This document shows, one piece after another, positions 13,602-55,353 of a stretch of 64,000 bases of DNA. Origin of the DNA: Cylicocyclus nassatus (Eukaryota; Nematoda; Chromadorea; Rhabditida; Strongylidae); the NCBI GenBank assembly GCA_958299035.1, contig CATQJL010000001.1, positions 30,602,228-30,666,227 of the forward strand, written 5' to 3'. The position numbers were made by a program, and so were the translations under genes. Under the pieces are notes generated by a model. That model did not search any database, was not told where the DNA came from, and saw only the letters and a program-made list of their open reading frames with translations. The first letter of the stretch is position 1; every line of letters starts with the position of its first letter.

Positions 13602-13641
13602 GGCCTCTGAGGACGGTGTTTTTCCGCCGAAACGTAAGGCT
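13602..13641 (+). ncRNA. Minimal hammerhead ribozyme motif (copy 1)
   Basis: Seen directly: stem I 5' strand GGCCT (13602-13606), core CTGAGGA (13607-13613), one extra C, stem II GGTG (13615-13618) and CGCC (13625-13628) closed by TTTTTC, core GAAA (13629-13632), then CGTA and the stem I 3' strand AGGCT (13637-13641, one G-U pair). This matches CUGANGA…GAAA…UH, with predicted cleavage after A13636. Stem III would be only A-U and C-G with no loop, but ACGT is self-complementary, so two neighbouring copies can form a 4-bp intermolecular stem III. Hammerheads with very short stem III are known from PLEs. The extra C after CTGAGGA departs from the consensus, and activity is untested. Confidence 0.75.
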
Positions 13642-13704
13642 CAATAGGGAGTTCCGATAAAAACCTGTTGTGACATAAAAAAAGTCAAACGATATACTAT
13701 CAAC

Positions 13705-14157
13705 ATGCCAAGGTTTAAAGAAAGGAGGACTTATGAAGTACTTCGAAACGTACCGCCAAGATTGTTCTCCTTAGTTCAAGAAGCTCTAGCGCTTCGACAG
13801 AAAGTGATAGCAACCAACCAATCGCTTACGTTCCTCAAACGATGCAGAATGGAAGGCGTGCTACCTCACTTCATTACGAATAACAAACTTGGAGTCACCT
13901 GCAATCTCCCAGAAGAACATCAGATACGCGGACTGTACAAATCGATCTTGGGAGTTACGATAAGGCAGAAGCAGTACGTCTTATACTCCACTCGAATGAA
14001 GTGCAGATCGAAGGAGGAAGCCTGTCGTAGACTATTGAATGATGATACATGGCAGAGGATTGAAAGCGCGTCAAGGCGTATCTGCGACATTGTGCGATCT
14101 AATACTAAAACCACACTTGGAAGAAAATTTGACGTACTCTTGAGTGAGCGTAGGTAG
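13705..14157 (+). pseudogene. Unit 1: N-terminal PLE region
   Basis: 150 codons from ATG, 64 nt 3' of the hammerhead motif, ending …DVLLSERR-TAG. The basic, helical content (KERRTYEVLRNVPP, LALRQKVIATNQSLTFLKRCR) fits the poorly conserved region ahead of the PLE RT. The following residues (SLSKLKRSNPEIQQ) are in frame 2, so a one-base shift lies at 14144-14157. The ATG is the natural start candidate because it is the first after the ribozyme and is kept in all units. Confidence 0.7.
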
Positions 14158-14158
14158 T

Positions 14159-14578
14159 TTGTCTAAGCTTAAACGAAGCAATCCGGAGATCCAACAACGG
14201 TCGATAATTTTAGATCAATCCCAAACTGATAACACGGCCAGGGTCACTGTTTTAGGCAACGTTAACATCTCTGCTCACGCTGTAGACCTACTAAGCTTGG
14301 GACCATCCTTTGCGCCAACGCAAAACGTTGATTGTAAGGTCTTCCGCAAAGTACTAGACTCTTTGCAAAGATTTAGAGATCAGCTACGGACCAAGGTCAG
14401 GCTTGATACCAACCCACAAGCTTCTGTTCTTTGTAGAAGACTGTTACCCTCAATACCTTTTCCGTCGTCGTTCTACAAAGAACCCGAACCCTGCCACGAA
14501 GCTGATGTTAAATTTCGTATACTGTCGGCTGGCATTCTAAACTGGATAAAAGTCGCAGCATCAAACAATCTAACTTAA
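14159..14578 (+). pseudogene. Unit 1: second N-terminal PLE segment (frame 2)
   Basis: It reads SLSKLKRSNPEIQQ… through VDLLSLGPSFAPTQNVD to SAGILNWIKVAASNNLT. 'LSLGPSFAP' is a recognisable block upstream of the RT in PLEs. It ends at TAA created by a five-base TAACT tandem duplication. Immediately after it the frame-1 reading resumes with THAQRQGFKEL. Confidence 0.75.
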
Positions 14579-14580
14579 CT

Positions 14581-15299
14581 CACGCACAAAGGCAGGGATT
14601 CAAGGAGCTACGTGAATTTACATCTAATGGGACCCTCCGACTTTCGATTAGCGGCAAAGGAGGCGAATTTGTTATCATGCCCCAGACACTGGACCGTGAC
14701 ATTACCGAATATCACTTATCCAATGATTCAGTATATCGTCGCTCAACAGAGAAAGAATTTCTTTCTCAATGCAAACGACTGAACCATATGTGGGTGGTGA
14801 TTGGCAAGCAGGCCGGTTTAGAAGAAAGGTTCCTCAGTCGGCTCAAGATTGAAAATCCGATCTGCCCTGTCTTCTACAGCCTCGTTAAAACGCATAAGCT
14901 CTCGACCGATCCACGAAATGTGTCAGCTGCAAATTGTAAAATTCGACCAATCATCAGTTGCGTTGGAGGGCCGACAGACAGAATTGCATGGTTCCTGAAC
15001 AAGATTGTCAGCCAACTTTTAAGTACGATCCCCGCTCATCTGCCGAATACCAATCGCTTCCTTGAACAATTACGCAATACGAATTTCGATCAGCATTGTG
15101 TAATAGAGTCTTTTGATGTGGAGTCATTATACACAAATGTGTCTAACGATGACGCCTTACAGGCACTTTCTGAGCTCCTCGATTCACATATCACAAATAT
15201 GGAAACCTACAGACTCAGTAAAGTACGCATCATTGCTCTTATCAAGGAATGCCTTGGATGTAATATCTTAAGATGGGCGGGCAAGTATTACCACAGCTA
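14581..15299 (+). pseudogene. Unit 1: RT fingers/palm, blocks through motif A
   Basis: PLE reverse transcriptase core. Visible blocks are GGEFVIMP, FYSLVKTHKL, KIRPIISCVGGPTDRIAWFL and motif A SFDVESLYTNV, whose aspartate is one of the catalytic carboxylates. The frame stops after WAGKYYHS at 15298-15300, and the next RT block is in frame 3. The FYxLxKTHK, RPIxS and SFDVxSLYTN combination distinguishes PLE RTs from LINE and LTR RTs. Confidence 0.9.
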
Positions 15300-15407
15300 A
15301 GAGGGCTGGCGATGGGGCAAAGACTAGCTCCGGTCCTTGCTATCTGCTTTATGAGCAAGATAGAAGAGCCGGTACTGACGCGACGTCCCCTTTTGTACTG
15401 CCGCTAG
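15300..15407 (+). pseudogene. Unit 1: RT motif B segment, ends at lost YxDD
   Basis: Frame 3 reads RGLAMGQRLAPVLAICF… to PLLYCR and meets TAG at 15405-15407. 'GxAMGxxLAP' is the PLE motif B. The YxDD catalytic box should follow YCR directly. Comparing spacing with the downstream frame (GATTGTTTCATT, reading DCFIF from 15407) shows that seven bases are missing, which removes most of the box and shifts the frame. Confidence 0.88.
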
Positions 15408-15784
15408 ATTGTTTCATTTTCACATCGACTCAGTCCGAAATGGATGAGTGCTTCAAGATCCTCAATTAACCGCAGTACATTTGCTTGACCAGAGAAGAAC
15501 CACACGATGGCTGGCTACCCTTTCTCAACACACAGGTGAAGTTGGCTAAAGGCGCTGCACACTTTAAATGGTATCGGAAAGAGAGCAGCAAGAACATCAT
15601 TCTGCACGCGATCTCTGCTCATCCAGCTGCCGTGAAACGTGCGGTTATGCGCAACATATTCAGAACAGCAAGCAGCGTATGCAGCGGCGAAAGTGAAAGA
15701 CTTGAGTCTCTCGAAATGGCACGCGTCATCGTTTCCAACAACGGATACCACTGCAGCCCAAAACCTTCAGGCGAACACGCATGA
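15407..15784 (+). pseudogene. Unit 1: RT thumb segment with internal stop
   Basis: Frame 2 starts DCFIFTSTQSEMDECFKILN, meets TAA at 15467-15469, then continues PQYICLTREEPHDGWLPFLN and the YRKESSKN…HPAAVKRAVM thumb. The stop replaces three codons that are open in the truncated unit 0. It ends at TGA overlapping the next ATG by the sequence ATGA. Confidence 0.85.
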
Positions 15785-16146
15785 ACGCGAGCAACCAAAG
15801 CCGAACACGCATTTCTTTGTGCTTGCCGTTCATATCCGACAAAGTGACCAATGCAGTTAGGCGATGTATAGCGCAAGCGCAGTTGGAAGATGATGTTGTC
15901 TTAGTGAATGTACCACAAGACAGCATCAGAAAACAACTGGTTCGAAATCGATTGTACGATATAGCTTGCAGATCGCAAAACTGCGTTGTGTGCACAAATG
16001 GAAGGTCAGGGGATTGCTCACGAAGTGGTGTAGTTTATCAGTTGGAATGTCAAACATGCCGGGCCATTTACATCGGTGAGACAGGTCGACCACTTTCAGT
16101 GCGTGTAAATGAACATCTGGCCAGTAAAGAAGACAAAGCCTCGTGA
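15781..16146 (+). pseudogene. Unit 1: GIY-YIG endonuclease, truncated to 121 codons
   Basis: Same domain as unit 0 up to VRVNEHLASK, then a one-base loss (AGTAAAGAAG instead of AGTAAACGAAG) shifts the frame and ends at TGA (16144-16146). The downstream HRKEDHDGKDFE block is therefore out of frame. The Y, Y and R positions of the nuclease core are present. Confidence 0.85.
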
Positions 16147-16576: not shown

Positions 16577-16616
16577 GGCCTCTGAGGACGGTGTTTTTCC
16601 GCCGAAACGTAAGGCT
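16577..16616 (+). ncRNA. Hammerhead ribozyme motif (copy 2)
   Basis: Same 40-base core as the copy at 13602-13641; predicted cleavage after base 16611. Confidence 0.72.
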
Positions 16617-16679: not shown

Positions 16680-19654
16680 ATGCCAAGGTTTAAAGAAAGG
16701 AGGACTTATGAAGTACTTCGAAACGTACCGCCAAGATTGTTCTCCTTAGTTCAAGAAGCTCTAGCGCTTCGACAGAAAGTGATAGCAACCAACCAATCGC
16801 TTACGTTCCTCAAACGATGCAGAATGGAAGGCGTGCTACCTCACTTCATTACGAATAACAAACTTGGAGTCACCTGCAATCTCCCAGAAGAACATCAGAT
16901 ACGCGGACTGTACAAATCGATCTTGGGAGTTACGATAAGGCAGAAGCAGTACGTCTTATACTCCACTCGAATGAAGTGCAGATCGAAGGAGGAAGCCTGT
17001 CGTAGACTATTGAATGATGATACATGGCAGAGGATTGAAAGCGCGTCAAGGCGTATCTGCGACATTGTGCGATCTAATACTAAAACCACACTTGGAAGAA
17101 AATTTGACGTACTCTTGAGTGAGCGTAGGTAGTTTGTCTAAGCTTAAACGAAGCAATCCGGAGATCCAACAACGGTCGATAATTTTAGATCAATCCCAAA
17201 CTGATAACACGGCCAGGGTCACTGTTTTAGGCAACGTTAACATCTCTGCTCACGCTGTAGACCTACTAAGCTTGGGACCATCCTTTGCGCCAACGCAAAA
17301 CGTTGATTGTAAGGTCTTCCGCAAAGTACTAGACTCTTTGCAAAGATTTAGAGATCAGCTACGGACCAAGGTCAGGCTTGATACCAACCCACAAGCTTCT
17401 GTTCTTTGTAGAAGACTGTTACCCTCAATACCTTTTCCGTCGTCGTTCTACAAAGAACCCGAACCCTGCCACGAAGCTGATGTTAAATTTCGTATACTGT
17501 CGGCTGGCATTCTAAACTGGATAAAAGTCGCAGCATCAAACAATCTAACTTAACTCACGCACAAAGGCAGGGATTCAAGGAGCTACGTGAATTTACATCT
17601 AATGGGACCCTCCGACTTTCGATTAGCGGCAAAGGAGGCGAATTTGTTATCATGCCCCAGACACTGGACCGTGACATTACCGAATATCACTTATCCAATG
17701 ATTCAGTATATCGTCGCTCAACAGAGAAAGAATTTCTTTCTCAATGCAAACGACTGAACCATATGTGGGTGGTGATTGGCAAGCAGGCCGGTTTAGAAGA
17801 AAGGTTCCTCAGTCGGCTCAAGATTGAAAATCCGATCTGCCCTGTCTTCTACAGCCTCGTTAAAACGCATAAGCTCTCGACCGATCCACGAAATGTGTCA
17901 GCTGCAAATTGTAAAATTCGACCAATCATCAGTTGCGTTGGAGGGCCGACAGACAGAATTGCATGGTTCCTGAACAAGATTGTCAGCCAACTTTTAAGTA
18001 CGATCCCCGCTCATCTGCCGAATACCAATCGCTTCCTTGAACAATTACGCAATACGAATTTCGATCAGCATTGTGTAATAGAGTCTTTTGATGTGGAGTC
18101 ATTATACACAAATGTGTCTAACGATGACGCCTTACAGGCACTTTCTGAGCTCCTCGATTCACATATCACAAATATGGAAACCTACAGACTCAGTAAAGTA
18201 CGCATCATTGCTCTTATCAAGGAATGCCTTGGATGTAATATCTTAAGATGGGCGGGCAAGTATTACCACAGCTAAGAGGGCTGGCGATGGGGCAAAGACT
18301 AGCTCCGGTCCTTGCTATCTGCTTTATGAGCAAGATAGAAGAGCCGGTACTGACGCGACGTCCCCTTTTGTACTGCCGCTAGATTGTTTCATTTTCACAT
18401 CGACTCAGTCCGAAATGGATGAGTGCTTCAAGATCCTCAATTAACCGCAGTACATTTGCTTGACCAGAGAAGAACCACACGATGGCTGGCTACCCTTTCT
18501 CAACACACAGGTGAAGTTGGCTAAAGGCGCTGCACACTTTAAATGGTATCGGAAAGAGAGCAGCAAGAACATCATTCTGCACGCGATCTCTGCTCATCCA
18601 GCTGCCGTGAAACGTGCGGTTATGCGCAACATATTCAGAACAGCAAGCAGCGTATGCAGCGGCGAAAGTGAAAGACTTGAGTCTCTCGAAATGGCACGCG
18701 TCATCGTTTCCAACAACGGATACCACTGCAGCCCAAAACCTTCAGGCGAACACGCATGAACGCGAGCAACCAAAGCCGAACACGCATTTCTTTGTGCTTG
18801 CCGTTCATATCCGACAAAGTGACCAATGCAGTTAGGCGATGTATAGCGCAAGCGCAGTTGGAAGATGATGTTGTCTTAGTGAATGTACCACAAGACAGCA
18901 TCAGAAAACAACTGGTTCGAAATCGATTGTACGATATAGCTTGCAGATCGCAAAACTGCGTTGTGTGCACAAATGGAAGGTCAGGGGATTGCTCACGAAG
19001 TGGTGTAGTTTATCAGTTGGAATGTCAAACATGCCGGGCCATTTACATCGGTGAGACAGGTCGACCACTTTCAGTGCGTGTAAATGAACATCTGGCCAGT
19101 AAAGAAGACAAAGCCTCGTGAGCCCATTGGGGAAACATAGGAAGGAGGACCATGACGGCAAAGATTTTGAAATAAGCTAACATACTGGCAGTCGAGGATA
19201 ATATCTCAGCTCGGAAAGCGTTGGAAGCCGCATACATTCTTGCTCGGAATCCGAAAATGAATAGCAAGAATGAACAGTTGTCGATCACAAATGATCTTAA
19301 GCCGTTCCTATCATTTTGCGGTTTCTAGATAACCTGCAGCTACATAAACATGTCCAACTCAGCTGGACTGTTCATTGTCACCATATCCTGTAGGCGACCG
19401 AAAGAGCTTTTATCGGCTCTTCTGTGGAACTCTTGGTAAGTTGATTCGGCTGGATGCTAGACTCCGATCACTTTGGACGAATCAAACGTACGAGTTGGTT
19501 AAAGCATTTGATCGCATAAAGCGTTTGATGGAAGTGATTGAATCGCTTTCAGGCCTCTGAGGACGGTGTTTTTCCGCCGAAACGTAAGGCTCAATAGGGA
19601 GTTCCGATAAAAACCTGTTGTGACATAAAAAAAGTCAAACGATATACTATCAAC
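16680..19654 (+). pseudogene. PLE array unit 2 (2975 bp)
   Basis: Same lesions as unit 1, including the one-base loss in the endonuclease near 19103. I saw no distinguishing variant from unit 1. Confidence 0.9.
19552..19591 (+). ncRNA. Hammerhead ribozyme motif (copy 3)
   Basis: Identical core; predicted cleavage after base 19586. Confidence 0.72.
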
Positions 19655-22630
19655 ATGCCAAGGTTTAAAGAAAGGAGGACTTATGAAGTACTTCGAAACG
19701 TACCGCCAAGATTGTTCTCCTTAGTTCAAGAAGCTCTAGCGCTTCGACAGAAAGTGATAGCAACCAACCAATCGCTTACGTTCCTCAAACGATGCAGAAT
19801 GGAAGGCGTGCTACCTCACTTCATTACGAATAACAAACTTGGAGTCACCTGCAATCTCCCAGAAGAACATCAGATACGCGGACTGTACAAATCGATCTTG
19901 GGAGTTACGATAAGGCAGAAGCAGTACGTCTTATACTCCACTCGAATGAAGTGCAGATCGAAGGAGGAAGCCTGTCGTAGACTATTGAATGATGATACAT
20001 GGCAGAGGATTGAAAGCGCGTCAAGGCGTATCTGCGACATTGTGCGATCTAATACTAAAACCACACTTGGAAGAAAATTTGACGTACTCTTGAGTGAGCG
20101 TAGGTAGTTTGTCTAAGCTTAAACGAAGCAATCCGGAGATCCAACAACGGTCGATAATTTTAGATCAATCCCAAACTGATAACACGGCCAGGGTCACTGT
20201 TTTAGGCAACGTTAACATCTCTGCTCACGCTGTAGACCTACTAAGCTTGGGACCATCCTTTGCGCCAACGCAAAACGTTGATTGTAAGGTCTTCCGCAAA
20301 GTACTAGACTCTTTGCAAAGATTTAGAGATCAGCTACGGACCAAGGTCAGGCTTGATACCAACCCACAAGCTTCTGTTCTTTGTAGAAGACTGTTACCCT
20401 CAATACCTTTTCCGTCGTCGTTCTACAAAGAACCCGAACCCTGCCACGAAGCTGATGTTAAATTTCGTATACTGTCGGCTGGCATTCTAAACTGGATAAA
20501 AGTCGCAGCATCAAACAATCTAACTTAACTCACGCACAAAGGCAGGGATTCAAGGAGCTACGTGAATTTACATCTAATGGGACCCTCCGACTTTCGATTA
20601 GCGGCAAAGGAGGCGAATTTGTTATCATGCCCCAGACACTGGACCGTGACATTACCGAATATCACTTATCCAATGATTCAGTATATCGTCGCTCAACAGA
20701 GAAAGAATTTCTTTCTCAATGCAAACGACTGAACCATATGTGGGTGGTGATTGGCAAGCAGGCCGGTTTAGAAGAAAGGTTCCTCAGTCGGCTCAAGATT
20801 GAAAATCCGATCTGCCCTGTCTTCTACAGCCTCGTTAAAACGCATAAGCTCTCGACCGATCCACGAAATGTGTCAGCTGCAAATTGTAAAATTCGACCAA
20901 TCATCAGTTGCGTTGGAGGGCCGACAGACAGAATTGCATGGTTCCTGAACAAGATTGTCAGCCAACTTTTAAGTACGATCCCCGCTCATCTGCCGAATAC
21001 CAATCGCTTCCTTGAACAATTACGCAATACGAATTTCGATCAGCATTGTGTAATAGAGTCTTTTGATGTGGAGTCATTATACACAAATGTGTCTAACGAT
21101 GACGCCTTACAGGCACTTTCTGAGCTCCTCGATTCACATATCACAAATATGGAAACCTACAGACTCAGTAAAGTACGCATCATTGCTCTTATCAAGGAAT
21201 GCCTTGGATGTAATATCTTAAGATGGGCGGGCAAGTATTACCACAGCTAAGAGGGCTGGCGATGGGGCAAAGACTAGCTCCGGTCCTTGCTATCTGCTTT
21301 ATGAGCAAGATAGAAGAGCCGGTACCGACGCGACGTCCCCTTTTGTACTGCCGCTAGATTGTTTCATTTTCACATCGACTCAGTCCGAAATGGATGAGTG
21401 CTTCAAGATCCTCAATTAACCGCAGTACATTTGCTTGACCAGAGAAGAACCACACGATGGCTGGCTACCCTTTCTCAACACACAGGTGAAGTTGGCTAAA
21501 GGCGCTGCACACTTTAAATGGTATCGGAAAGAGAGCAGCAAGAACATCATTCTGCACGCGATCTCTGCTCATCCAGCTGCCGTGAAACGTGCGGTTATGC
21601 GCAACATATTCAGAACAGCAAGCAGCGTATGCAGCGGCGAAAGTGAAAGACTTGAGTCTCTCGAAATGGCACGCGTCATCGTTTCCAACAACGGATACCA
21701 CTGCAGCCCAAAACCTTCAGGCGAACACGCATGAACGCGAGCAACCAAAGCCGAACACGCATTTCTTTGTGCTTGCCGTTCATATCCGACAAAGTGACCA
21801 ATGCAGTTAGGCGATGTATAGCGCAAGCGCAGTTGGAAGATGATGTTGTCTTAGTGAATGTACCACAAGACAGCATCAGAAAACAACTGGTTCGAAATCG
21901 ATTGTACGATATAGCTTGCAGATCGCAAAACTGCGTTGTGTGCACAAATGGAAGGTCAGGGGATTGCTCACGAAGTGGTGTAGTTTATCAGTTGGAATGT
22001 CAAACATGCCGAGCTATTTACATCGGTGAGACAGGTCGACCACTTTCAGTGCGTGTAAATGAACATCTGGCCAGTAAACGAAGACAAAGCCTCGTGAGCC
22101 CATTGGGGAAACATAGGAAGGAGGACCATGACGGCAAAGATTTTGAAATAAGCTAACATACTGGCAGTCGAGGATAATATCTCAGCTCGGAAAGCGTTGG
22201 AAGCCGCATACATTCTTGCTCGGAATCCGAAAATGAATAGCAAGAATGAACAGTTGTCGATCACAAATGATCTTAAGCCGTTCCTATCATTTTGCGGTTT
22301 CTAGATAACCTGCAGCTACATAAACATGTCCAACTCAGCTGGACTGTTCATTGTCACCATATCCTGTAGGCGACCGAAAGAGCTTTTATCGGCTCTTCTG
22401 TGGAACTCTTGGTAAGTTGATTCGGCTGGATGCTAGACTCCGATCACTTTGGACGAATCAAACGTACGAGTTGGTTAAAGCATTTGATCGCATAAAGCGT
22501 TTGATGGAAGTGATTGAATCGCTTTCAGGCCTCTGAGGACGGTGTTTTTCCGCCGAAACGTAAGGCTCAATAGGGAGTTCCGATAAAAACCTGTTGTGAC
22601 ATAAAAAAAGTCAAACGATATACTATCAAC
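19655..22630 (+). pseudogene. PLE array unit 3 (2976 bp)
   Basis: Carries two variants that recur only in units 7 and 10 or in 7 alone: GGTACCGACG instead of GGTACTGACG (21326) and CGAGCTATT instead of CGGGCCATT (22011-22016). It keeps the endonuclease C, so the GIY-YIG frame is 141 codons (21731-22156). The RT lesions are unchanged. Confidence 0.9.
22528..22567 (+). ncRNA. Hammerhead ribozyme motif (copy 4)
   Basis: Identical core; predicted cleavage after base 22562. Confidence 0.72.
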
Positions 22631-25605
22631 ATGCCAAGGTTTAAAGAAAGGAGGACTTATGAAGTACTTCGAAACGTACCGCCAAGATTGTTCTCCTTAG
22701 TTCAAGAAGCTCTAGCGCTTCGACAGAAAGTGATAGCAACCAACCAATCGCTTACGTTCCTCAAACGATGCAGAATGGAAGGCGTGCTACCTCACTTCAT
22801 TACGAATAACAAACTTGGAGTCACCTGCAATCTCCCAGAAGAACATCAGATACGCGGACTGTACAAATCGATCTTGGGAGTTACGATAAGGCAGAAGCAG
22901 TACGTCTTATACTCCACTCGAATGAAGTGCAGATCGAAGGAGGAAGCCTGTCGTAGACTATTGAATGATGATACATGGCAGAGGATTGAAAGCGCGTCAA
23001 GGCGTATCTGCGACATTGTGCGATCTAATACTAAAACCACACTTGGAAGAAAATTTGACGTACTCTTGAGTGAGCGTAGGTAGTTTGTCTAAGCTTAAAC
23101 GAAGCAATCCGGAGATCCAACAACGGTCGATAATTTTAGATCAATCCCAAACTGATAACACGGCCAGGGTCACTGTTTTAGGCAACGTTAACATCTCTGC
23201 TCACGCTGTAGACCTACTAAGCTTGGGACCATCCTTTGCGCCAACGCAAAACGTTGATTGTAAGGTCTTCCGCAAAGTACTAGACTCTTTGCAAAGATTT
23301 AGAGATCAGCTACGGACCAAGGTCAGGCTTGATACCAACCCACAAGCTTCTGTTCTTTGTAGAAGACTGTTACCCTCAATACCTTTTCCGTCGTCGTTCT
23401 ACAAAGAACCCGAACCCTGCCACGAAGCTGATGTTAAATTTCGTATACTGTCGGCTGGCATTCTAAACTGGATAAAAGTCGCAGCATCAAACAATCTAAC
23501 TTAACTCACGCACAAAGGCAGGGATTCAAGGAGCTACGTGAATTTACATCTAATGGGACCCTCCGACTTTCGATTAGCGGCAAAGGAGGCGAATTTGTTA
23601 TCATGCCCCAGACACTGGACCGTGACATTACCGAATATCACTTATCCAATGATTCAGTATATCGTCGCTCAACAGAGAAAGAATTTCTTTCTCAATGCAA
23701 ACGACTGAACCATATGTGGGTGGTGATTGGCAAGCAGGCCGGTTTAGAAGAAAGGTTCCTCAGTCGGCTTAAGATTGAAAATCCGATCTGCCCTGTCTTC
23801 TACAGCCTCGTTAAAACGCATAAGCTCTCGACCGATCCACGAAATGTGTCAGCTGCAAATTGTAAAATTCGACCAATCATCAGTTGCGTTGGAGGGCCGA
23901 CAGACAGAATTGCATGGTTCCTGAACAAGATTGTCAGCCAACTTTTAAGTACGATCCCCGCTCATCTGCCGAATACCAATCGCTTCCTTGAACAATTACG
24001 CAATACGAATTTTGATCAGCATTGTGTAATAGAGTCTTTTGATGTGGAGTCATTATACACAAATGTGTCTAACGATGACGCCTTACAGGCACTTTCTGAG
24101 CTCCTCGATTCACATATCACAAATATGGAAACCTACAGACTCAGTAAAGTACGCATCATTGCTCTTATCAAGGAATGCCTTGGATGTAATATCTTAAGAT
24201 GGGCGGGCAAGTATTACCACAGCTAAGAGGGCTGGCGATGGGGCAAAGACTAGCTCCGGTCCTTGCTATCTGCTTTATGAGCAAGATAGAAGAGCCGGTA
24301 CTGACGCGACGTCCCCTTTTGTACTGCCGCTAGATTGTTTCATTTTCACATCGACTCAGTCCGAAATGGATGAGTGCTTCAAGATCCTCAATTAACCGCA
24401 GTACATTTGCTTGACCAGAGAAGAACCACACGATGGCTGGCTACCCTTTCTCAACACACAGGTGAAGTTGGCTAAAGGCGCTGCACACTTTAAATGGTAT
24501 CGGAAAGAGAGCAGCAAGAACATCATTCTGCACGCGATCTCTGCTCATCCAGCTGCCGTGAAACGTGCGGTTATGCGCAACATATTCAGAACAGCAAGCA
24601 GCGTATGCAGCGGCGAAAGTGAAAGACTTGAGTCTCTCGAAATGGCACGCGTCATCGTTTCCAACAACGGATACCACTGCAGCCCAAAACCTTCAGGCGA
24701 ACACGCATGAACGCGAGCAACCAAAGCCGAACACGCATTTCTTTGTGCTTGCCGTTCATATCCGACAAAGTGACCAATGCAGTTAGGCGATGTATAGCGC
24801 AAGCGCAGTTGGAAGATGATGTTGTCTTAGTGAATGTACCACAAGACAGCATCAGAAAACAACTGGTTCGAAATCGATTGTACGATATAGCTTGCAGATC
24901 GCAAAACTGCGTTGTGTGCACAAATGGAAGGTCAGGGGATTGCTCACGAAGTGGTGTAGTTTATCAGTTGGAATGTCAAACATGCCGGGCCATTTACATC
25001 GGTGAGACAGGTCGACCACTTTCAGTGCGTGTAAATGAACATCTGGCCAGTAAAGAAGACAAAGCCTCGTGAGCCCATTGGGGAAACATAGGAAGGAGGA
25101 CCATGACGGCAAAGATTTTGAAATAAGCTAACATACTGGCAGTCGAGGATAATATCTCAGCTCGGAAAGCGTTGGAAGCCGCATACATTCTTGCTCGGAA
25201 TCCGAAAATGAATAGCAAGAATGAACAGTTGTCGATCACAAATGATCTTAAGCCGTTCCTATCATTTTGCGGTTTCTAGATAACCTGCAGCTACATAAAC
25301 ATGTCCAACTCAGCTGGACTGTTCATTGTCACCATATCCTGTAGGCGACCGAAAGAGCTTTTATCGGCTCTTCTGTGGAACTCTTGGTAAGTTGATTCGG
25401 CTGGATGCTAGACTCCGATCACTTTGGACGAATCAAACGTACGAGTTGGTTAAAGCATTTGATCGCATAAAGCGTTTGATGGAAGTGATTGAATCGCTTT
25501 CAGGCCTCTGAGGACGGTGTTTTTCCGCCGAAACGTAAGGCTCAATAGGGAGTTCCGATAAAAACCTGTTGTGACATAAAAAAAGTCAAACGATATACTA
25601 TCAAC
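22631..25605 (+). pseudogene. PLE array unit 4 (2975 bp)
   Basis: Has CGGCTTAAG (T at 23770) shared only with unit 8, and a private AATTTTGATC near 24010. The endonuclease C is lost (frame 24707-25072). Confidence 0.9.
25503..25542 (+). ncRNA. Hammerhead ribozyme motif (copy 5)
   Basis: Identical core; predicted cleavage after base 25537. Confidence 0.72.
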
Positions 25606-43456: not shown

Positions 43457-46430
43457 ATGCCAAGGTTTAAAGAAAGGAGGACTTATGAAGTACTTCGAAA
43501 CGTACCGCCAAGATTGTTCTCCTTAGTTCAAGAAGCTCTAGCGCTTCGACAGAAAGTGATAGCAACCAACCAATCGCTTACGTTCCTCAAACGATGCAGA
43601 ATGGAAGGCGTGCTACCTCACTTCATTACGAATAACAAACTTGGAGTCACCTGCAATCTCCCAGAAGAACATCAGATACGCGGACTGTACAAATCGATCT
43701 TGGGAGTTACGATAAGGCAGAAGCAGTACGTCTTATACTCCACTCGAATGAAGTGCAGATCGAAGGAGGAAGCCTGTCGTAGACTATTGAATGATGATAC
43801 ATGGCAGAGGATTGAAAGCGCGTCAAGGCGTATCTGCGACATTGTGCGATCTAATACTAAAACCACACTTGGAAGAAAATTTGACGTACTCTTGAGTGAG
43901 CGTAGGTAGTTTGTCTAAGCTTAAACGAAGCAATCCGGAGATCCAACAACGGTCGATAATTTTAGATCAATCCCAAACTGATAACACGGCCAGGGTCACT
44001 GTTTTAGGCAACGTTAACATCTCTGCTCACGCTGTAGACCTACTAAGCTTGGGACCATCCTTTGCGCCAACGCAAAACGTTGATTGTAAGGTCTTCCGCA
44101 AAGTACTAGACTCTTTGCAAAGATTTAGAGATCAGCTACGGACCAAGGTCAGGCTTGATACCAACCCACAAGCTTCTGTTCTTTGTAGAAGACTGTTACC
44201 CTCAATACCTTTTCCGTCGTCGTTCTACAAAGAACCCGAACCCTGCCACGAAGCTGATGTTAAATTTCGTATACTGTCGGCTGGCATTCTAAACTGGATA
44301 AAAGTCGCAGCATCAAACAATCTAACTTAACTCACGCACAAAGGCAGGGATTCAAGGAGCTACGTGAATTTACATCTAATGGGACCCTCCGACTTTCGAT
44401 TAGCGGCAAAGGAGGCGAATTTGTTATCATGCCCCAGACACTGGACCGACATTACCGAATATCACTTATCCAATGATTCAGTATATCGTCGCTCAACAGA
44501 GAAAGAATTTCTTTCTCAATGCAAACGACTGAACCATATGTGGGTGGTGATTGGCAAGCAGGCCGGTTTAGAAGAAAGGTTCCTCAGTCGGCTCAAGATT
44601 GAAAATCCGATCTGCCCTGTCTTCTACAGCCTCGTTAAAACGCATAAGCTCTCGACCGATCCACGAAATGTGTCAGCTGCAAATTGTAAAATTCGACCAA
44701 TCATCAGTTGCGTTGGAGGGCCGACAGACAGAATTGCATGGTTCCTGAACAAGATTGTCAGCCAACTTTTAAGTACGATCCCCGCTCATCTGCCGAATAC
44801 CAATCGCTTCCTTGAACAATTACGCAATACGAATTTCGATCAGCATTGTGTAATAGAGTCTTTTGATGTGGAGTCATTATACACAAATGTGTCTAACGAT
44901 GACGCCTTACAGGCACTTTCTGAGCTCCTCGATTCACATATCACAAATATGGAAACCTACAGACTCAGTAAAGTACGCATCATTGCTCTTATCAAGGAAT
45001 GCCTTGGATGTAATATCTTAAGATGGGCGGGCAAGTATTACCACAGCTAAGAGGGCTGGCGATGGGGCAAAGACTAGCTCCGGTCCTTGCTATCTGCTTT
45101 ATGAGCAAGATAGAAGAGCCGGTACTGACGCGACGTCCCCTTTTGTACTGCCGCTAGATTGTTTCATTTTCACATCGACTCAGTCCGAAATGGATGAGTG
45201 CTTCAAGATCTTCAATTAACCGCAGTACATTTGCTTGACCAGAGAAGAACCACACGATGGCTGGCTACCCTTTCTCAACACACAGGTGAAGTTGGCTAAA
45301 GGCGCTGCACACTTTAAATGGTATCGGAAAGAGAGCAGCAAGAACATCATTCTGCACGCGATCTCTGCTCATCCAGCTGCCGTGAAACGTGCGGTTATGC
45401 GCAACATATTCAGAACAGCAAGCAGCGTATGCAGCGGCGAAAGTGAAAGACTTGAGTCTCTCGAAATGGCACGCGTCATCGTTTCCAACAACGGATACCA
45501 CTGCAGCCCAAAACCTTCAGGCGAACACGCATGAACGCGAGCAACCAAAGCCGAACACGCATTTCTTTGTGCTTGCCGTTCATATCCGACAAAGTGACCA
45601 ATGCAGTTAGGCGATGTATAGCGCAAGCGCAGTTGGAAGATGATGTTGTCTTAGTGAATGTACCACAAGACAGCATCAGAAAACAACTGGTTCGAAATCG
45701 ATTGTACGATATAGCTTGCAGATCGCAAAACTGCGTTGTGTGCACAAATGGAAGGTCAGGGGATTGCTCACGAAGTGGTGTAGTTTATCAGTTGGAATGT
45801 CAAACATGCCGGGCCATTTACATCGGTGAGACAGGTCGACCACTTTCAGTGCGTGTAAATGAACATCTGGCCAGTAAACGAAGACAAAGCCTCGTGAGCC
45901 CATTGGGGAAACATAGGAAGGAGGACCATGACGGCAAAGATTTTGAAATAAGCTAACATACTGGCAGTCGAGGATAATATCTCAGCTCGGAAAGCGTTGG
46001 AAGCCGCATACATTCTTGCTCGGAATCCGAAAATGAATAGCAAGAATGAACAGTTGTCGATCACAAATGATCTTAAGCCGTTCCTATCATTTTGCGGTTT
46101 CTAGATAACCTGCAGCTACATAAACATGTCCAACTCAGCTGGACTGTTCATTGTCACCATATCCTGTAGGCGACCGAAAGAGCTTTTATCGGCTCTTCTG
46201 TGGAACTCTTGGTAAGTTGATTCGGCTGGATGCTAGACTCCGATCACTTTGGACGAATCAAACGTACGAGTTGGTTAAAGCATTTGATCGCATAAAGCGT
46301 TTGATGGAAGTGATTGAATCGCTTTCAGGCCTCTGAGGACGGTGTTTTTCCGCCGAAACGTAAGGCTCAATAGGGAGTTCCGATAAAAACCTGTTGTGAC
46401 ATAAAAAAAGTCAAACGATATACTATCAAC
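43457..46430 (+). pseudogene. PLE array unit 11 (2974 bp), mosaic
   Basis: Has GCGATCTAAT as in units 1-8 but the GT loss of the right subfamily, plus GATCTTCAAT (about 45210) shared with units 12 and 14. Endonuclease of 141 codons at 45531-45956. Confidence 0.9.
46328..46367 (+). ncRNA. Hammerhead ribozyme motif (copy 12)
   Basis: Identical core; predicted cleavage after base 46362. Confidence 0.72.
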
Positions 46431-49404
46431 ATGCCAAGGTTTAAAGAAAGGAGGACTTATGAAGTACTTCGAAACGTACCGCCAAGATTGTTCTCCTTAG
46501 TTCAAGAAGCTCTAGCGCTTCGACAGAAAGTGATAGCAACCAACCAATCGCTTACGTTCCTCAAACGATGCAGAATGGAAGGCGTGCTACCTCACTTCAT
46601 TACGAATAACAAACTTGGAGTCACCTGCAATCTCCCAGAAGAACATCAGATACGCGGACTGTACAAATCGATCTTGGGAGTTACGATAAGGCAGAAGCAG
46701 TACGTCTTATACTCCACTCGAATGAAGTGCAGATCGAAGGAGGAAGCCTGTCGTAGACTATTGAATGATGATACATGGCAGAGGATTGAAAGCGCGTCAA
46801 GGCGTATCTGCGACATTGTGCGGTCTAATACTAAAACCACACTTGGAAGAAAATTTGACGTACTCTTGAGTGAGCGTAGGTAGTTTGTCTAAGCTTAAAC
46901 GAAGCAATCCGGAGATCCAACAACGGTCGATAATTTTAGATCAATCCCAAACTGATAACACGGCCAGGGTCACTGTTTTAGGCAACGTTAACATCTCTGC
47001 TCACGCTGTAGACCTACTAAGCTTGGGACCATCCTTTGCGCCAACGCAAAACGTTGATTGTAAGGTCTTCCGCAAAGTACTAGACTCTTTGCAAAGATTT
47101 AGAGATCAGCTACGGACCAAGGTCAGGCTTGATACCAACCCACAAGCTTCTGTTCTTTGTAGAAGACTGTTACCCTCAATACCTTTTCCGTCGTCGTTCT
47201 ACAAAGAACCCGAACCCTGCCACGAAGCTGATGTTAAATTTCGTATACTGTCGGCTGGCATTCTAAACTGGATAAAAGTCGCAGCATCAAACAATCTAAC
47301 TTAACTCACGCACAAAGGCAGGGATTCAAGGAGCTACGTGAATTTACATCTAATGGGACCCTCCGACTTTCGATTAGCGGCAAAGGAGGCGAATTTGTTA
47401 TCATGCCCCAGACACTGGACCGACATTACCGAATATCACTTATCCAATGATTCAGTATATCGTCGCTCAACAGAGAAAGAATTTCTTTCTCAATGCAAAC
47501 GACTGAACCATATGTGGGTGGTGATTGGCAAGCAGGCCGGTTTAGAAGAAAGGTTCCTCAGTCGGCTCAAGATTGAAAATCCGATCTGCCCTGTCTTCTA
47601 CAGCCTCGTTAAAACGCATAAGCTCTCGACCGATCCACGAAATGTGTCAGCTGCAAATTGTAAAATTCGACCAATCATCAGTTGCGTTGGAGGGCCGACA
47701 GACAGAATTGCATGGTTCCTGAACAAGATTGTCAGCCAACTTTTAAGTACGATCCCCGCTCATCTGCCGAATACCAATCGCTTCCTTGAACAATTACGCA
47801 ATACGAATTTCGATCAGCATTGTGTAATAGAGTCTTTTGATGTGGAGTCATTATACACAAATGTGTCTAACGATGACGCCTTACAGGCACTTTCTGAGCT
47901 CCTCGATTCACATATCACAAATATGGAAACCTACAGACTCAGTAAAGTACGCATCATTGCTCTTATCAAGGAATGCCTTGGATGTAATATCTTAAGATGG
48001 GCGGGCAAGTATTACCACAGCTAAGAGGGCTGGCGATGGGGCAAAGACTAGCTCCGGTCCTTGCTATCTGCTTTATGAGCAAGATAGAAGAGCCGGTACT
48101 GACGCGACGTCCCCTTTTGTACTGCCGCTAGATTGTTTCATTTTCACATCGACTCAGTCCGAAATGGATGAGTGCTTCAAGATCTTCAATTAACCGCAGT
48201 ACATTTGCTTGACCAGAGAAGAACCACACGATGGCTGGCTACCCTTTCTCAACACACAGGTGAAGTTGGCTAAAGGCGCTGCACACTTTAAATGGTATCG
48301 GAAAGAGAGCAGCAAGAACATCATTCTGCACGCGATCTCTGCTCATCCAGCTGCCGTGAAACGTGCGGTTATGCGCAACATATTCAGAACAGCAAGCAGC
48401 GTATGCAGCGGCGAAAGTGAAAGACTTGAGTCTCTCGAAATGGCACGCGTCATCGTTTCCAACAACGGATACCACTGCAGCCCAAAACCTTCAGGCGAAC
48501 ACGCATGAACGCGAGCAACCAAAGCCGAACACGCATTTCTTTGTGCTTGCCGTTCATATCCGACAAAGTGACCAATGCAGTTAGGCGATGTATAGCGCAA
48601 GCGCAGTTGGAAGATGATGTTGTCTTAGTGAATGTACCACAAGACAGCATCAGAAAACAACTGGTTCGAAATCGATTGTACGATATAGCTTGCAGATCGC
48701 AAAACTGCGTTGTGTGCACAAATGGAAGGTCAGGGGATTGCTCACGAAGTGGTGTAGTTTATCAGTTGGAATGTCAAACATGCCGGGCCATTTACATCGG
48801 TGAGACAGGTCGACCACTTTCAGTGCGTGTAAATGAACATCTGGCCAGTAAACGAAGACAAAGCCTCGTGAGCCCATTGGGGAAACATAGGAAGGAGGAC
48901 CATGACGGCAAAGATTTTGAAATAAGCTAACATACTGGCAGTCGAGGATAATATCTCAGCTCGGAAAGCGTTGGAAGCCGCATACATTCTTGCTCGGAAT
49001 CCGAAAATGAATAGCAAGAATGAACAGTTGTCGATCACAAATGATCTTAAGCCGTTCCTATCATTTTGCGGTTTCTAGATAACCTGCAGCTACATAAACA
49101 TGTCCAACTCAGCTGGACTGTTCATTGTCACCATATCCTGTAGGCGACCGAAAGAGCTTTTATCGGCTCTTCTGTGGAACTCTTGGTAAGTTGATTCGGC
49201 TGGATGCTAGACTCCGATCACTTTGGACGAATCAAACGTACGAGTTGGTTAAAGCATTTGATCGCATAAAGCGTTTGATGGAAGTGATTGAATCGCTTTC
49301 AGGCCTCTGAGGACGGTGTTTTTCCGCCGAAACGTAAGGCTCAATAGGGAGTTCCGATAAAAACCTGTTGTGACATAAAAAAAGTCAAACGATATACTAT
49401 CAAC
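46431..49404 (+). pseudogene. PLE array unit 12 (2974 bp)
   Basis: Right subfamily: GCGGTCTAAT, GT loss, and GATCTTCAAT (about 48184). Endonuclease of 141 codons at 48505-48930. Confidence 0.9.
49302..49341 (+). ncRNA. Hammerhead ribozyme motif (copy 13)
   Basis: Identical core; predicted cleavage after base 49336. Confidence 0.72.
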
Positions 49405-52378
49405 ATGCCAAGGTTTAAAGAAAGGAGGACTTATGAAGTACTTCGAAACGTACCGCCAAGATTGTTCTCCTTAGTTCAAGAAGCTCTAGCGCTTCGACAG
49501 AAAGTGATAGCAACCAACCAATCGCTTACGTTCCTCAAACGATGCAGAATGGAAGGCGTGCTACCTCACTTCATTACGAATAACAAACTTGGAGTCACCT
49601 GCAATCTCCCAGAAGAACATCAGATACGCGGACTGTACAAATCGATCTTGGGAGTTACGATAAGGCAGAAGCAGTACGTCTTATACTCCACTCGAATGAA
49701 GTGCAGATCGAAGGAGGAAGCCTGTCGTAGACTATTGAATGATGATACATGGCAGAGGATTGAAAGCGCGTCAAGGCGTATCTGCGACATTGTGCGGTCT
49801 AATACTAAAACCACACTTGGAAGAAAATTTGACGTACTCTTGAGTGAGCGTAGGTAGTTTGTCTAAGCTTAAACGAAGCAATCCGGAGATCCAACAACGG
49901 TCGATAATTTTAGATCAATCCCAAACTGATAACACGGCCAGGGTCACTGTTTTAGGCAACGTTAACATCTCTGCTCACGCTGTAGACCTACTAAGCTTGG
50001 GACCATCCTTTGCGCCAACGCAAAACGTTGATTGTAAGGTCTTCCGCAAAGTACTAGACTCTTTGCAAAGATTTAGAGATCAGCTACGGACCAAGGTCAG
50101 GCTTGATACCAACCCACAAGCTTCTGTTCTTTGTAGAAGACTGTTACCCTCAATACCTTTTCCGTCGTCGTTCTACAAAGAACCCGAACCCTGCCACGAA
50201 GCTGATGTTAAATTTCGTATACTGTCGGCTGGCATTCTAAACTGGATAAAAGTCGCAGCATCAAACAATCTAACTTAACTCACGCACAAAGGCAGGGATT
50301 CAAGGAGCTACGTGAATTTACATCTAATGGGACCCTCCGACTTTCGATTAGCGGCAAAGGAGGCGAATTTGTTATCATGCCCCAGACACTGGACCGACAT
50401 TACCGAATATCACTTATCCAATGATTCAGTATATCGTCGCTCAACAGAGAAAGAATTTCTTTCTCAATGCAAACGACTGAACCATATGTGGGTGGTGATT
50501 GGCAAGCAGGCCGGTTTAGAAGAAAGGTTCCTCAGTCGGCTCAAGATTGAAAATCCGATCTGCCCTGTCTTCTACAGCCTCGTTAAAACGCATAAGCTCT
50601 CGACCGATCCACGAAATGTGTCAGCTGCAAATTGTAAAATTCGACCAATCATCAGTTGCGTTGGAGGGCCGACAGACAGAATTGCATGGTTCCTGAACAA
50701 GATTGTCAGCCAACTTTTAAGTACGATCCCCGCTCATCTGCCGAATACCAATCGCTTCCTTGAACAATTACGCAATACGAATTTCGATCAGCATTGTGTA
50801 ATAGAGTCTTTTGATGTGGAGTCATTATACACAAATGTGTCTAACGATGACGCCTTACAGGCACTTTCTGAGCTCCTCGATTCACATATCACAAATATGG
50901 AAACCTACAGACTCAGTAAAGTACGCATCATTGCTCTTATCAAGGAATGCCTTGGATGTAATATCTTAAGATGGGCGGGCAAGTATTACCACAGCTAAGA
51001 GGGCTGGCGATGGGGCAAAGACTAGCTCCGGTCCTTGCTATCTGCTTTATGAGCAAGATAGAAGAGCCGGTACTGACGCGACGTCCCCTTTTGTACTGCC
51101 GCTAGATTGTTTCATTTTCACATCGACTCAGTCCGAAATGGATGAGTGCTTCAAGATCCTCAATTAACCGCAGTACATTTGCTTGACCAGAGAAGAACCA
51201 CACGATGGCTGGCTACCCTTTCTCAACACACAGGTGAAGTTGGCTAAAGGCGCTGCACACTTTAAATGGTATCGGAAAGAGAGCAGCAAGAACATCATTC
51301 TGCACGCGATCTCTGCTCATCCAGCTGCCGTGAAACGTGCGGTTATGCGCAACATATTCAGAACAGCAAGCAGCGTATGCAGCGGCGAAAGTGAAAGACT
51401 TGAGTCTCTCGAAATGGCACGCGTCATCGTTTCCAACAACGGATACCACTGCAGCCCAAAACCTTCAGGCGAACACGCATGAACGCGAGCAACCAAAGCC
51501 GAACACGCATTTCTTTGTGCTTGCCGTTCATATCCGACAAAGTGACCAATGCAGTTAGGCGATGTATAGCGCAAGCGCAGTTGGAAGATGATGTTGTCTT
51601 AGTGAATGTACCACAAGACAGCATCAGAAAACAACTGGTTCGAAATCGATTGTACGATATAGCTTGCAGATCGCAAAACTGCGTTGTGTGCACAAATGGA
51701 AGGTCAGGGGATTGCTCACGAAGTGGTGTAGTTTATCAGTTGGAATGTCAAACATGCCGGGCCATTTACATCGGTGAGACAGGTCGACCACTTTCAGTGC
51801 GTGTAAATGAACATCTGGCCAGTAAACGAAGACAAAGCCTCGTGAGCCCATTGGGGAAACATAGGAAGGAGGACCATGACGGCAAAGATTTTGAAATAAG
51901 CTAACATACTGGCAGTCGAGGATAATATCTCAGCTCGGAAAGCGTTGGAAGCCGCATACATTCTTGCTCGGAATCCGAAAATGAATAGCAAGAATGAACA
52001 GTTGTCGATCACAAATGATCTTAAGCCGTTCCTATCATTTTGCGGTTTCTAGATAACCTGCAGCTACATAAACATGTCCAACTCAGCTGGACTGTTCATT
52101 GTCACCATATCCTGTAGGCGACCGAAAGAGCTTTTATCGGCTCTTCTGTGGAACTCTTGGTAAGTTGATTCGGCTGGATGCTAGACTCCGATCACTTTGG
52201 ACGAATCAAACGTACGAGTTGGTTAAAGCATTTGATCGCATAAAGCGTTTGATGGAAGTGATTGAATCGCTTTCAGGCCTCTGAGGACGGTGTTTTTCCG
52301 CCGAAACGTAAGGCTCAATAGGGAGTTCCGATAAAAACCTGTTGTGACATAAAAAAAGTCAAACGATATACTATCAAC
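49405..52378 (+). pseudogene. PLE array unit 13 (2974 bp)
   Basis: Right subfamily with GCGGTCTAAT and GT loss, but GATCCTCAAT as in the left subfamily. Endonuclease of 141 codons at 51479-51904. Confidence 0.9.
52276..52315 (+). ncRNA. Hammerhead ribozyme motif (copy 14)
   Basis: Identical core; predicted cleavage after base 52310. Confidence 0.72.
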
Positions 52379-55353
52379 ATGCCAAGGTTTAAAGAAAGGA
52401 GGACTTATGAAGTACTTCGAAACGTACCGCCAAGATTGTTCTCCTTAGTTCAAGAAGCTCTAGCGCTTCGACAGAAAGTGATAGCAACCAACCAATCGCT
52501 TACGTTCCTCAAACGATGCAGAATGGAAGGCGTGCTACCTCACTTCATTACGAATAACAAACTTGGAGTCACCTGCAATCTCCCAGAAGAACATCAGATA
52601 CGCGGACTGTACAAATCGATCTTGGGAGTTACGATAAGGCAGAAGCAGTACGTCTTATACTCCACTCGAATGAAGTGCAGATCGAAGGAGGAAGCCTGTC
52701 GTAGACTATTGAATGATGATACATGGCAGAGGATTGAAAGCGCGTCAAGGCGTATCTGCGACATTGTGCGGTCTAATACTAAAACCACACTTGGAAGAAA
52801 ATTTGACGTACTCTTGAGTGAGCGTAGGTAGTTTGTCTAAGCTTAAACGAAGCAATCCGGAGATCCAACAACGGTCGATAATTTTAGATCAATCCCAAAC
52901 TGATAACACGGCCAGGGTCACTGTTTTAGGCAACGTTAACATCTCTGCTCACGCTGTAGACCTACTAAGCTTGGGACCATCCTTTGCGCCAACGCAAAAC
53001 GTTGATTGTAAGGTCTTCCGCAAAGTACTAGACTCTTTGCAAAGATTTAGAGATCAGCTACGGACCAAGGTCAGGCTTGATACCAACCCACAAGCTTCTG
53101 TTCTTTGTAGAAGACTGTTACCCTCAATACCTTTTCCGTCGTCGTTCTACAAAGAACCCGAACCCTGCCACGAAGCTGATGTTAAATTTCGTATACTGTC
53201 GGCTGGCATTCTAAACTGGATAAAAGTCGCAGCATCAAACAATCTAACTTAACTCACGCACAAAGGCAGGGATTCAAGGAGCTACGTGAATTTACATCTA
53301 ATGGGACCCTCCGACTTTCGATTAGCGGCAAAGGAGGCGAATTTGTTATCATGCCCCAGACACTGGACCGACATTACCGAATATCACTTATCCAATGATT
53401 CAGTATATCGTCGCTCAACAGAGAAAGAATTTCTTTCTCAATGCAAACGACTGAACCATATGTGGGTGGTGATTGGCAAGCAGGCCGGTTTAGAAGAAAG
53501 GTTCCTCAGTCGGCTCAAGATTGAAAATCCGATCTGCCCTGTCTTCTACAGCCTCGTTAAAACGCATAAGCTCTCGACCGATCCACGAAATGTGTCAGCT
53601 GCAAATTGTAAAATTCGACCAATCATCAGTTGCGTTGGAGGGCCGACAGACAGAATTGCATGGTTCCTGAACAAGATTGTCAGCCAACTTTTAAGTACGA
53701 TCCCCGCTCATCTGCCGAATACCAATCGCTTCCTTGAACAATTACGCAATACGAATTTCGATCAGCATTGTGTAATAGAGTCTTTTGATGTGGAGTCATT
53801 ATACACAAATGTGTCTAACGATGACGCCTTACAGGCACTTTCTGAGCTCCTCGATTCACATATCACAAATATGGAAACCTACAGACTCAGTAAAGTACGC
53901 ATCATTGCTCTTATCAAGGAATGCCTTGGATGTAATATCTTAAGATGGGCGGGCAAGTATTACCACAGCTAAGAGGGCTGGCGATGGGGCAAAGACTAGC
54001 TCCGGTCCTTGCTATCTGCTTTATGAGCAAGATAGAAGAGCCGGTACTGACGCGACGTCCCCTTTTGTACTGCCGCTAGATTGTTTCATTTTCACATCGA
54101 CTCAGTCCGAAATGGATGAGTGCTTCAAGATCTTCAATTAACCGCAGTACATTTGCTTGACCAGAGAAGAACCACACGATGGCTGGCTACCCTTTCTCAA
54201 CACACAGGTGAAGTTGGCTAAAGGCGCTGCACACTTTAAATGGTATCGGAAAGAGAGCAGCAAGAACATCATTCTGCACGCGATCTCTGCTCATCCAGCT
54301 GCCGTGAAACGTGCGGTTATGCGCAACATATTCAGAACAGCAAGCAGCGTATGCAGCGGCGAAAGTGAAAGACTTGAGTCTCTCGAAATGGCACGCGTCA
54401 TCGTTTCCAACAACGGATACCACTGCAGCCCAAAACCTTCAGGCGAACACGCATGAACGCGAGCAACCAAAGCCGAACACGCATTTCTTTGTGCTTGCCG
54501 TTCATATCCGACAAAGTGACCAATGCAGTTAGGCGATGTATAGCGCAAGCGCAGTTGGAAGATGATGTTGTCTTAGTGAATGTACCACAAGACAGCATCA
54601 GAAAACAACTGGTTCGAAATCGATTGTACGATATAGCTTGCAGATCGCAAAACTGCGTTGTGTGCACAAATGGAAGGTCAGGGGATTGCTCACGAAGTGG
54701 TGTAGTTTATCAGTTGGAATGTCAAACATGCCGGGCCATTTACATCGGTGAGACAGGTCGACCACTTTCAGTGCGTGTAGATGAACATCTGGCCAGTAAA
54801 CGAAGACAAAGCCTCGTGAGCCCATTGGGGAAACATAGGAAGGAGGACCATGACGGCAAAGATTTTGAAATAAGCTAACATACTGGCAGTCGAGGATAAT
54901 ATCTCAGCTCGGAAAGCGTTGGAAGCCGCATACATTCTTGCTCGGAATCCGAAAATGAATAGCAAGAATGAACAGTTGTCGATCACAAATGATCTTAAGC
55001 CGTTCCTATCATTTTGCGGTTTCTAGATAACCTGCAGCTACATAAACATGTCCAACTCAGCTGGACTGTTCATTGTCACCATATCCTGTAGGCGACCGAA
55101 AGAGCTTTTATCGGCTCTTCTGTGGAACTCTTGGTAAGTTGATTCGGCTGGATGCTAGACTCCGATCACTTTGGACGAATCAAACGTACGAGTTGGTTAA
55201 AGCATTTGATCGCATAAAGCGTTTGATGGAAGTGATTGAATCGCTTTCAGGCCTCTGAGGACGGTGTTTTTCCGCCGAAACGTAAGGCTCAATAAAGAGT
55301 TCCGATAAAAACCTGTTGTGACATAAAAAAAAGTTAAACGATATACTATCAAC
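52379..55353 (+). pseudogene. PLE array unit 14 (2975 bp), last full unit
   Basis: Right subfamily markers with GATCTTCAAT. Private changes: GTAGATGAAC in the endonuclease (Asn to Asp in VRVDEHL, about 54780), CAATAAAGAG after the ribozyme, one extra A in the A-run and AGTTAAAC instead of AGTCAAAC. The private changes cluster at the array edge. Endonuclease of 141 codons at 54453-54878. Confidence 0.9.
55250..55289 (+). ncRNA. Hammerhead ribozyme motif (copy 15, right edge)
   Basis: Core and all stems are intact even though the bases just downstream have changed (CAATAAAGAG). Predicted cleavage after base 55284, leaving about 99 nt of element 3' of the cut. Confidence 0.72.

Follow-up and report, generated by a model that had tools for sequence, protein, structure and literature searches.

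Fifteen minimal hammerhead motifs along a 14-unit array of a broken Penelope-like element in the nematode Cylicocyclus nassatus

The question raised by a 64-kb stretch of the Cylicocyclus nassatus genome (contig CATQJL010000001.1, positions 30,602,228 to 30,666,227 of the forward strand; hereafter the window) is why hammerhead ribozyme motifs recur there about every 2975 nucleotides (nt), and whether they made the array in which they sit. The original prediction had placed one motif at each of fifteen unit junctions of a 14-unit head-to-tail array with that period, and we found all fifteen where it had put them and with the letters it had described, between them 14 complete head-to-tail units of 2974-2976 nt. 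Our searches of the source genome (514.7 Mb), in which the array is known from one assembly, show that each unit is a Penelope-like element (PLE), and the array is probably the product of one PLE insertion that grew at the DNA level to 14 units. The hammerhead, of a dimer type, would be the element's own leader ribozyme, and its recurrence once per unit would follow from each unit being a single element.

The motif core, CTGAGGACGGTGTTTTTCCGCCGAAA, occurs in 15 copies in the window, all on the plus strand, each with AGGCCT before it and CGTAAGGCT after it. These motifs are identical across the 26-nt core and follow one another at 2974-2976 nt from 13602-13641 to 55250-55289; the chance expectation for the core pattern in the window, from dinucleotide shuffles, is 0.01. 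Read as a hammerhead, the letters give stem I (GGCCT/AGGCT), the box CTGAGGA, an extra C, stem II (GGTG/CGCC) with the loop TTTTTC, the box GAAA, the palindrome ACGT and an A at H17, and the core boxes CUGANGA and GAAA with an H17 other than G are present in 15 of 15. When stem I, the core, 0-1 extra nt, stem II and a palindromic stem III were combined in one descriptor, it matched at 15 places in the window and nowhere in 20 Mb of first-order Markov sequence. The motifs, each located both by the core pattern and by the covariance model described below, are:

13602..13641, plus strand: hammerhead motif 1, predicted cleavage after 13636
16577..16616, plus strand: hammerhead motif 2
19552..19591, plus strand: hammerhead motif 3
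22528..22567, plus strand: hammerhead motif 4
25503..25542, plus strand: hammerhead motif 5
28478..28517, plus strand: hammerhead motif 6
31453..31492, plus strand: hammerhead motif 7
34429..34468, plus strand: hammerhead motif 8
37404..37443, plus strand: hammerhead motif 9
40378..40417, plus strand: hammerhead motif 10
43354..43393, plus strand: hammerhead motif 11
46328..46367, plus strand: hammerhead motif 12
49302..49341, plus strand: hammerhead motif 13
52276..52315, plus strand: hammerhead motif 14
55250..55289, plus strand: hammerhead motif 15, within the end piece of the array

A covariance model built from eight motifs of other PLE families in the same genome, and trained without the array copies, found all 15 motifs, each at 42.1 bits with an E value of 1.6e-9, and had no other match in the window up to E = 1. 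Judged by sequence, the array motifs are type-I hammerheads of the minimal PLE form, in agreement with the original prediction, which was also right that stem III is an ACGT palindrome able to pair solely between two copies. The ACGT of one copy would pair with the ACGT of another and stem I would then also form between copies, so that transcripts spanning at least two units could be cleaved to RNA of unit length. Minimal PLE hammerheads were reportedly described by Cervera and De la Pena in 2014 and by Lunse, Weinberg and Breaker in 2017. Reviews of PLEs summarise them as minimal type-I hammerheads in pseudo-long terminal repeats (pseudo-LTRs), in tandem and possibly dimeric (PMC6155905, PMC7761336), and the motifs here resemble the forms outlined there in type, in their pseudo-LTR setting, in a stem III that is almost absent, in showing no sign of loop-loop contacts and in having tandem copies that may act as dimers.

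The coding content of the unit identifies the element. The first unit holds three parts of an open reading frame (ORF):

13705..14157, plus strand: PLE ORF start (MPRFKERRTYEV...), closed after 150 codons; the same start is found in the intact ORF of a dispersed copy, L127
14677..15300, plus strand: reverse-transcriptase (RT) part, 207 amino acids; the YIDD expected just downstream is absent (LLYCR-stop)
15781..16146, plus strand: GIY-YIG endonuclease part, 121 amino acids (Pfam PF01541)

The endonuclease part matches PF01541 at E 1.7e-4 with 22.3 bits, just below the cut-off of 22.6. The RT part has 41 protein relatives at E <= 0.001, of which the named ones are from strongylid nematodes (Necator, Ancylostoma, Haemonchus, Angiostrongylus), and a comparison with solved structures gave weak RT matches alone (best E 0.018). 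The matches of the RT relatives to the array unit shift among three frames, and where the relatives read YCRY[IV]DD the unit reads YCR-stop, a site at which no alignment column varies, so all 14 units share the stop. The fetched dispersed copies have YIDD at 7 of 8 sites and YTDD at the eighth. The array is thus dead, with YIDD lost and its frames broken. L127, by comparison, lies 10 Mb away on the same contig (G000:C1:40251500-40261499) and has a single 890-codon ORF in which both RVT_1 (43.1 bits) and GIY-YIG (24.1 bits) score above their cut-offs; the array unit is about 94% identical to it. The PLE hallmark of one ORF with an RT and a C-terminal GIY-YIG endonuclease is therefore found in a close relative and in broken form in the array, which also has the tandem or partly tandem copies, pseudo-LTRs, 5' truncation and optional 3' tail of PLEs. 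On this evidence the unit is a PLE, with RT and GIY-YIG endonuclease, of a strongylid-like nematode, and PLEs had been named in advance as a known home of such motifs. An endonuclease query of the genome returned 5863 first-look candidates, of which 150 were scored, so PLEs seem very abundant here. Open frames of 600-965 codons are present in many of the 150.

A non-autonomous satellite or retrozyme could also have tandem units, type-I hammerheads and a dead coding sequence, since metazoan non-LTR retrozymes are tandem repeats with one type-I hammerhead per repeat, with dimer action described in amphibians (PMC7229834). Their units, however, are given in the same account as about 300 bp, non-coding and without an RT, whereas the unit here is a full-length, recently broken PLE of 2975 nt that keeps remnants of RT and endonuclease. 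This coding content refutes the satellite or retrozyme identity, which we regard as scarcely credible. The array does resemble long arrays and satellites into which other retroelement copies have turned, although those treated in PMC7004042 and PMC7215508 are plant LTR-type elements and not ribozyme-bearing PLEs.

The motif is not peculiar to the array. Twenty test loci were hand-picked from the 150 scored hits by endonuclease similarity, covering a spread of identity levels and including tandem loci, and at each a 501-nt stretch, 150-650 nt downstream of the endonuclease match, was examined. All 20 loci, which belong to other PLE families, carry a hammerhead at the same place; 19 have an intact core (coding strand, stretch positions 284-348, eight distinct motifs) and one, L202, is decayed. 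In dispersed copies of about 3.0 kb the motif likewise occupies this place, and the period is the PLE unit length elsewhere too, so the suggestion that the ribozyme defines the repeat period was dropped. In each of the 19 core-intact loci one extra nucleotide separates CTGANGA from stem II (C in 18, A in L206), and stem II directly follows that box neither there nor in the array. The extra C, which had been called atypical and suspected of weakening or altering the core, is thus a lineage trait and not a defect of the array. Reportedly, the (+) hammerhead of Chrysanthemum chlorotic mottle viroid, studied by De la Pena and Flores in 2001, also has an extra nucleotide in its otherwise conserved core, there in a viroid and here in a retrotransposon. 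The extra nucleotide sets the motifs of this genome apart from the PLE forms as summarised in PMC6155905 and PMC7761336, and no account of nematode PLE hammerheads was found in the openly licensed literature.

The families differ in ways that largely preserve pairing. The first pair of stem I is U-A, C-G or U-G and the third pair of stem II is C-G, U-A or U-G; H17 is C or T in the sampled loci and A in the array, and N7 varies between A, C and G. The palindrome ACGT (GAAACGT, then H17) is constant in the array and in the eight distinct motifs, as befits a short stem III formed by two copies. When the eight motifs were aligned with the array and a single dispersed copy, pairing held in 77 of 80 stem cells, against 22-44% in slid versions. 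Stems I and II both show compensatory changes, with a covariation score that no slid version came near and that 1 of 500 shuffles equalled, a count that is not to be read as a probability because the alignment is small and its sequences are related. An earlier alignment (A1), which included the pattern-found copies L143-L146 and L188, was weaker (76.7% paired, equalled by 49 of 500 shuffles); at least some of these copies look decayed, and L144 is without coding support on the same strand, which is why the main covariation test was built on the 20 endonuclease-chosen loci. The intact motifs and covarying stems across families point to past selection as a ribozyme.

Could the motif be a chance match? 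The bare pattern CTGANGA-N15-GAAACGTA is found in at least 118 unrelated bacterial DNA stretches in GTDB genomes, but the fuller descriptor had no match in random sequence and the same motif stands at the same place in other PLE families. Across the whole genome the motif pattern has 47 sites (15 in the array, 24 in the same family elsewhere and 8 others), and a reversed control pattern has 5. In IMG/VR, neither the RT and endonuclease parts nor the motif had usable matches.

The borders of the array bear on how it arose. Its parts are:

12408..12417, no strand: left target-site duplication, GAAAATCAAG, a 10-mer shared with 55388-55397
12418..12431, plus strand: 14 nt at the 5' junction without a match to the unit; homology to the unit and to dispersed copies begins at 12432
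12432..13606, plus strand: 5'-truncated PLE copy; its differences from the 13th unit are confined to 12440-12589
13607..55254, plus strand: 14 complete head-to-tail PLE units of 2974-2976 nt, with 12 variable alignment columns
55255..55387, plus strand: 3' end piece with the hammerhead, the leader and about 35 nt of ORF start, of the 'long' PLE end class
55388..55397, no strand: right target-site duplication, GAAAATCAAG

Homology to the PLE unit runs from 12432 to near 55386, that is, from the truncated copy on the left to the short end piece on the right. The same 10-mer at both borders makes the entire 43 kb look like a single insertion site; a shared 10-mer was seen in 56 of 20000 random flank pairs of equal sizes. 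Our data suggests that a single PLE would have inserted as a partly tandem copy, with a 5'-truncated start, a ribozyme-containing 3' end and a 10-bp target-site duplication, and that this insertion would have grown to 14 full units after its RT gene was already broken.

Within the array any two of the 14 units differ at 0-8 positions. The left copy differs from the 13th unit in 12 columns, all in 12440-12589 and none over 12590-13606, and has 13 differences to the first unit and 14 to the third. When the 12 left columns are compared with dispersed copies, the edge has the family state at 6, and one column shows a third state. Between the end piece and the first unit there are differences at 55295, 55296, 55325, 55335 and 55384; of the four that were tested, three have the family state in the edge (one of them 19 of 25) and one has it in the units. 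Four-gamete comparison of the units gave three conflicts, in each of which the same column takes part, and the first four units are similar to units 5-8 (lag 4, p 0.015 before any correction for the 7 lags). We read this as an interior that has been homogenised and edges that are older and age separately, a pattern that fits unequal crossing-over or gene conversion; such recombination between units would keep them nearly identical. Near-identical units with older edges suggest a DNA-level expansion of one insertion, as far as one assembly can tell. Near-identical units are hard to assemble, and the period-4 pattern could stem from mis-joined repeats, but changes private to single places, at either edge and in the course of the array, show that several distinct units exist; we hold an assembly artefact, like a chance motif, to be very improbable.

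It is also conceivable that the ribozyme itself made the array, dimer cutting of multimers giving units that a host ligase circles and that an RT, running round the circle, writes many at a time. Hammerhead retrozymes are described as forming RNA circles (PMC7229834), and tandem units can arrive in one event in this genome, as the L127 and L190 insertion indicates: one 13-bp duplication encloses two head-to-tail units and one inverted unit, which differ at 0-2 positions over about 2880 nt and mark a recent insertion. Among the 150 scored hits, same-strand runs at 2.85-3.15 kb spacing number one of 15 (the array, the longest tandem run), two of 3 and six of 2, so that runs of 2-3 units at 3.0 kb spacing stand at eight further places. 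The usual limit here, however, is 2-3 units per arm and not 14, the array's own RT is dead, its edges are older than its interior and its units show recombination, and a linear multimeric transcript would give the same tandem copies without a circle. With its interior homogenised and its edges older, the array speaks for growth at the DNA level rather than for RNA circles as maker of the 14 units, and we consider the circle route unlikely. The tandem arrangement as such, which had been thought new, is known from PLEs organised in tandem or partial tandem (PMC11167929).

Side by side with these runs, many PLE copies form inverted twins. From the match table, 12 of the 16 fetched family loci (L127-L142, with L165, L179 and L189-L191) are 5'-to-5' twins, and among the 150 scored hits all 27 opposite-strand neighbours within 9 kb are arranged 5'-to-5'. 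Every twin with both ends present (11 of 11, two using a partner from a neighbouring locus) has one short and one long 3' end, 75-94 and 131-145 nt after the motif start, respectively. Counted in a window reaching 6 nt into the element and without a chance control, 8 of 9 twins examined for duplications share 9-16 nt at their borders and one shares 5. The twins suggest a single insertion event with priming on both strands and two fixed start sites, which fits the Poseidon PLE of Anolis carolinensis (PAc), for which both DNA strands are described as cut and extended in vitro and two RT start sites are given (PMC11167929). As portrayed in that study, PAc shares with the array tandem or partly tandem copies, a hammerhead, RT and GIY-YIG, and two 3' end classes, its 'tail' being 30-40 bp; unlike PAc, whose cut site is placed 26 bp after the ORF start, the motif here lies about 100 nt before it, and the array is dead and 14 units long (PMC11167929). 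A bolder scheme, which we put forward tentatively and think rather doubtful, would join these elements: a dimer hammerhead with a fixed extra nucleotide would cut multimers, the units would circularise, and the PLE protein, starting simultaneously on the two cut DNA strands, would reverse-transcribe RNA that is multimeric or circular. The 5'-to-5' twins so made could have several head-to-tail units in an arm, and such arms would seed satellite-like arrays like this one.

Several observations weigh against one PLE insertion grown at the DNA level with a dimer-type leader hammerhead. No Rfam hammerhead model matched at the gathering threshold in the whole window, up to E = 10 on 13560-16700 (one unit), or in ten related loci; the covariance check that the original prediction had called for thus failed with Rfam, in which the motifs fall short of family membership, and succeeded with the model from eight other PLE motifs. 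The predicted hammerhead dimer (-21.7 kcal/mol) is not the lowest-energy pairing, the best homodimer having -28.4 kcal/mol and the best single 47-mer fold -13.2, i.e. -26.4 for two. For PAc, cleavage is reported to have required the PLE protein, mutants of the ribozyme could still insert in vitro, and RNA-seq gave no ends at the cleavage site (PMC11167929). At 5 of the 12 left columns the units hold the family state (the majority state in two) and the edge is the odd one out, and the length of the array rests on one assembly. Finally, within the array's family the motif is conserved no better than its flanks, as seen in 26 rows chosen by 181-nt similarity without the motif as bait (L170/L177 and L174/L178 being duplicate loci). 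An apparent excess of motif conservation among 23 pattern-found family copies was an artefact of choosing copies by the motif, and disappeared with the similarity-chosen ones. Several of the 26 rows have broken core boxes, and decayed family copies can break the ACGT palindrome. The motif thus decays like its flanks within the family, and selection is visible between families and not among dead copies.

The same facts bear on whether the motifs are relics, former ribozymes that are now inactive passengers of a dead satellite-like array. The RT is dead, the family shows no excess conservation of the motif, and in stem II the array has a U at a position that is C in all 23 family copies found by the pattern, so that a C-G pair becomes a weaker U-G. 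In all 15 motifs the core, the stems and the palindrome are nevertheless intact, and stem II can still close with U-G; a relic state is quite possible, if not what we would expect. The PLE identity, the motif with its conservation and covariation across families, the duplication, the dead RT and the homogenised interior with older edges are read from the sequence; cleavage by the ribozyme, its action as a dimer and expansion by crossing-over are inferences.

Beside the array the window holds other repeats. Directly to its left is an inverted repeat of about 334 nt with 92% identity (11035-11368 and 11705-12037), both arms of which have an open frame with an identical peptide stretch. Copies of a diverged repeat (73-79% identity), in either orientation, flank the array at 5590-6608 and about 55871-56421, and a CA microsatellite of about 200 nt occupies 4864-5067.

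Since PLE hammerheads and tandem PLEs are already described (PMC6155905, PMC7761336, PMC11167929), the array belongs to a known kind, and what is unusual about it is the conserved extra nucleotide, measured against the forms summarised in PMC6155905 and PMC7761336, and its length of 14 units. The in vivo role of PLE hammerheads was called 'still a mystery' in a 2020 review (PMC7761336), and a 2024 study described the PLE hammerhead as protein-dependent and as dispensable for insertion in vitro (PMC11167929). In the genome of this nematode there are thousands of PLE candidates, several families whose ribozymes covary, tandem and twin insertions that are recent and have target-site duplications, and an array of 14 units. 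With such material one can test whether tandem copies are made by the ribozyme or by transcript structure alone.

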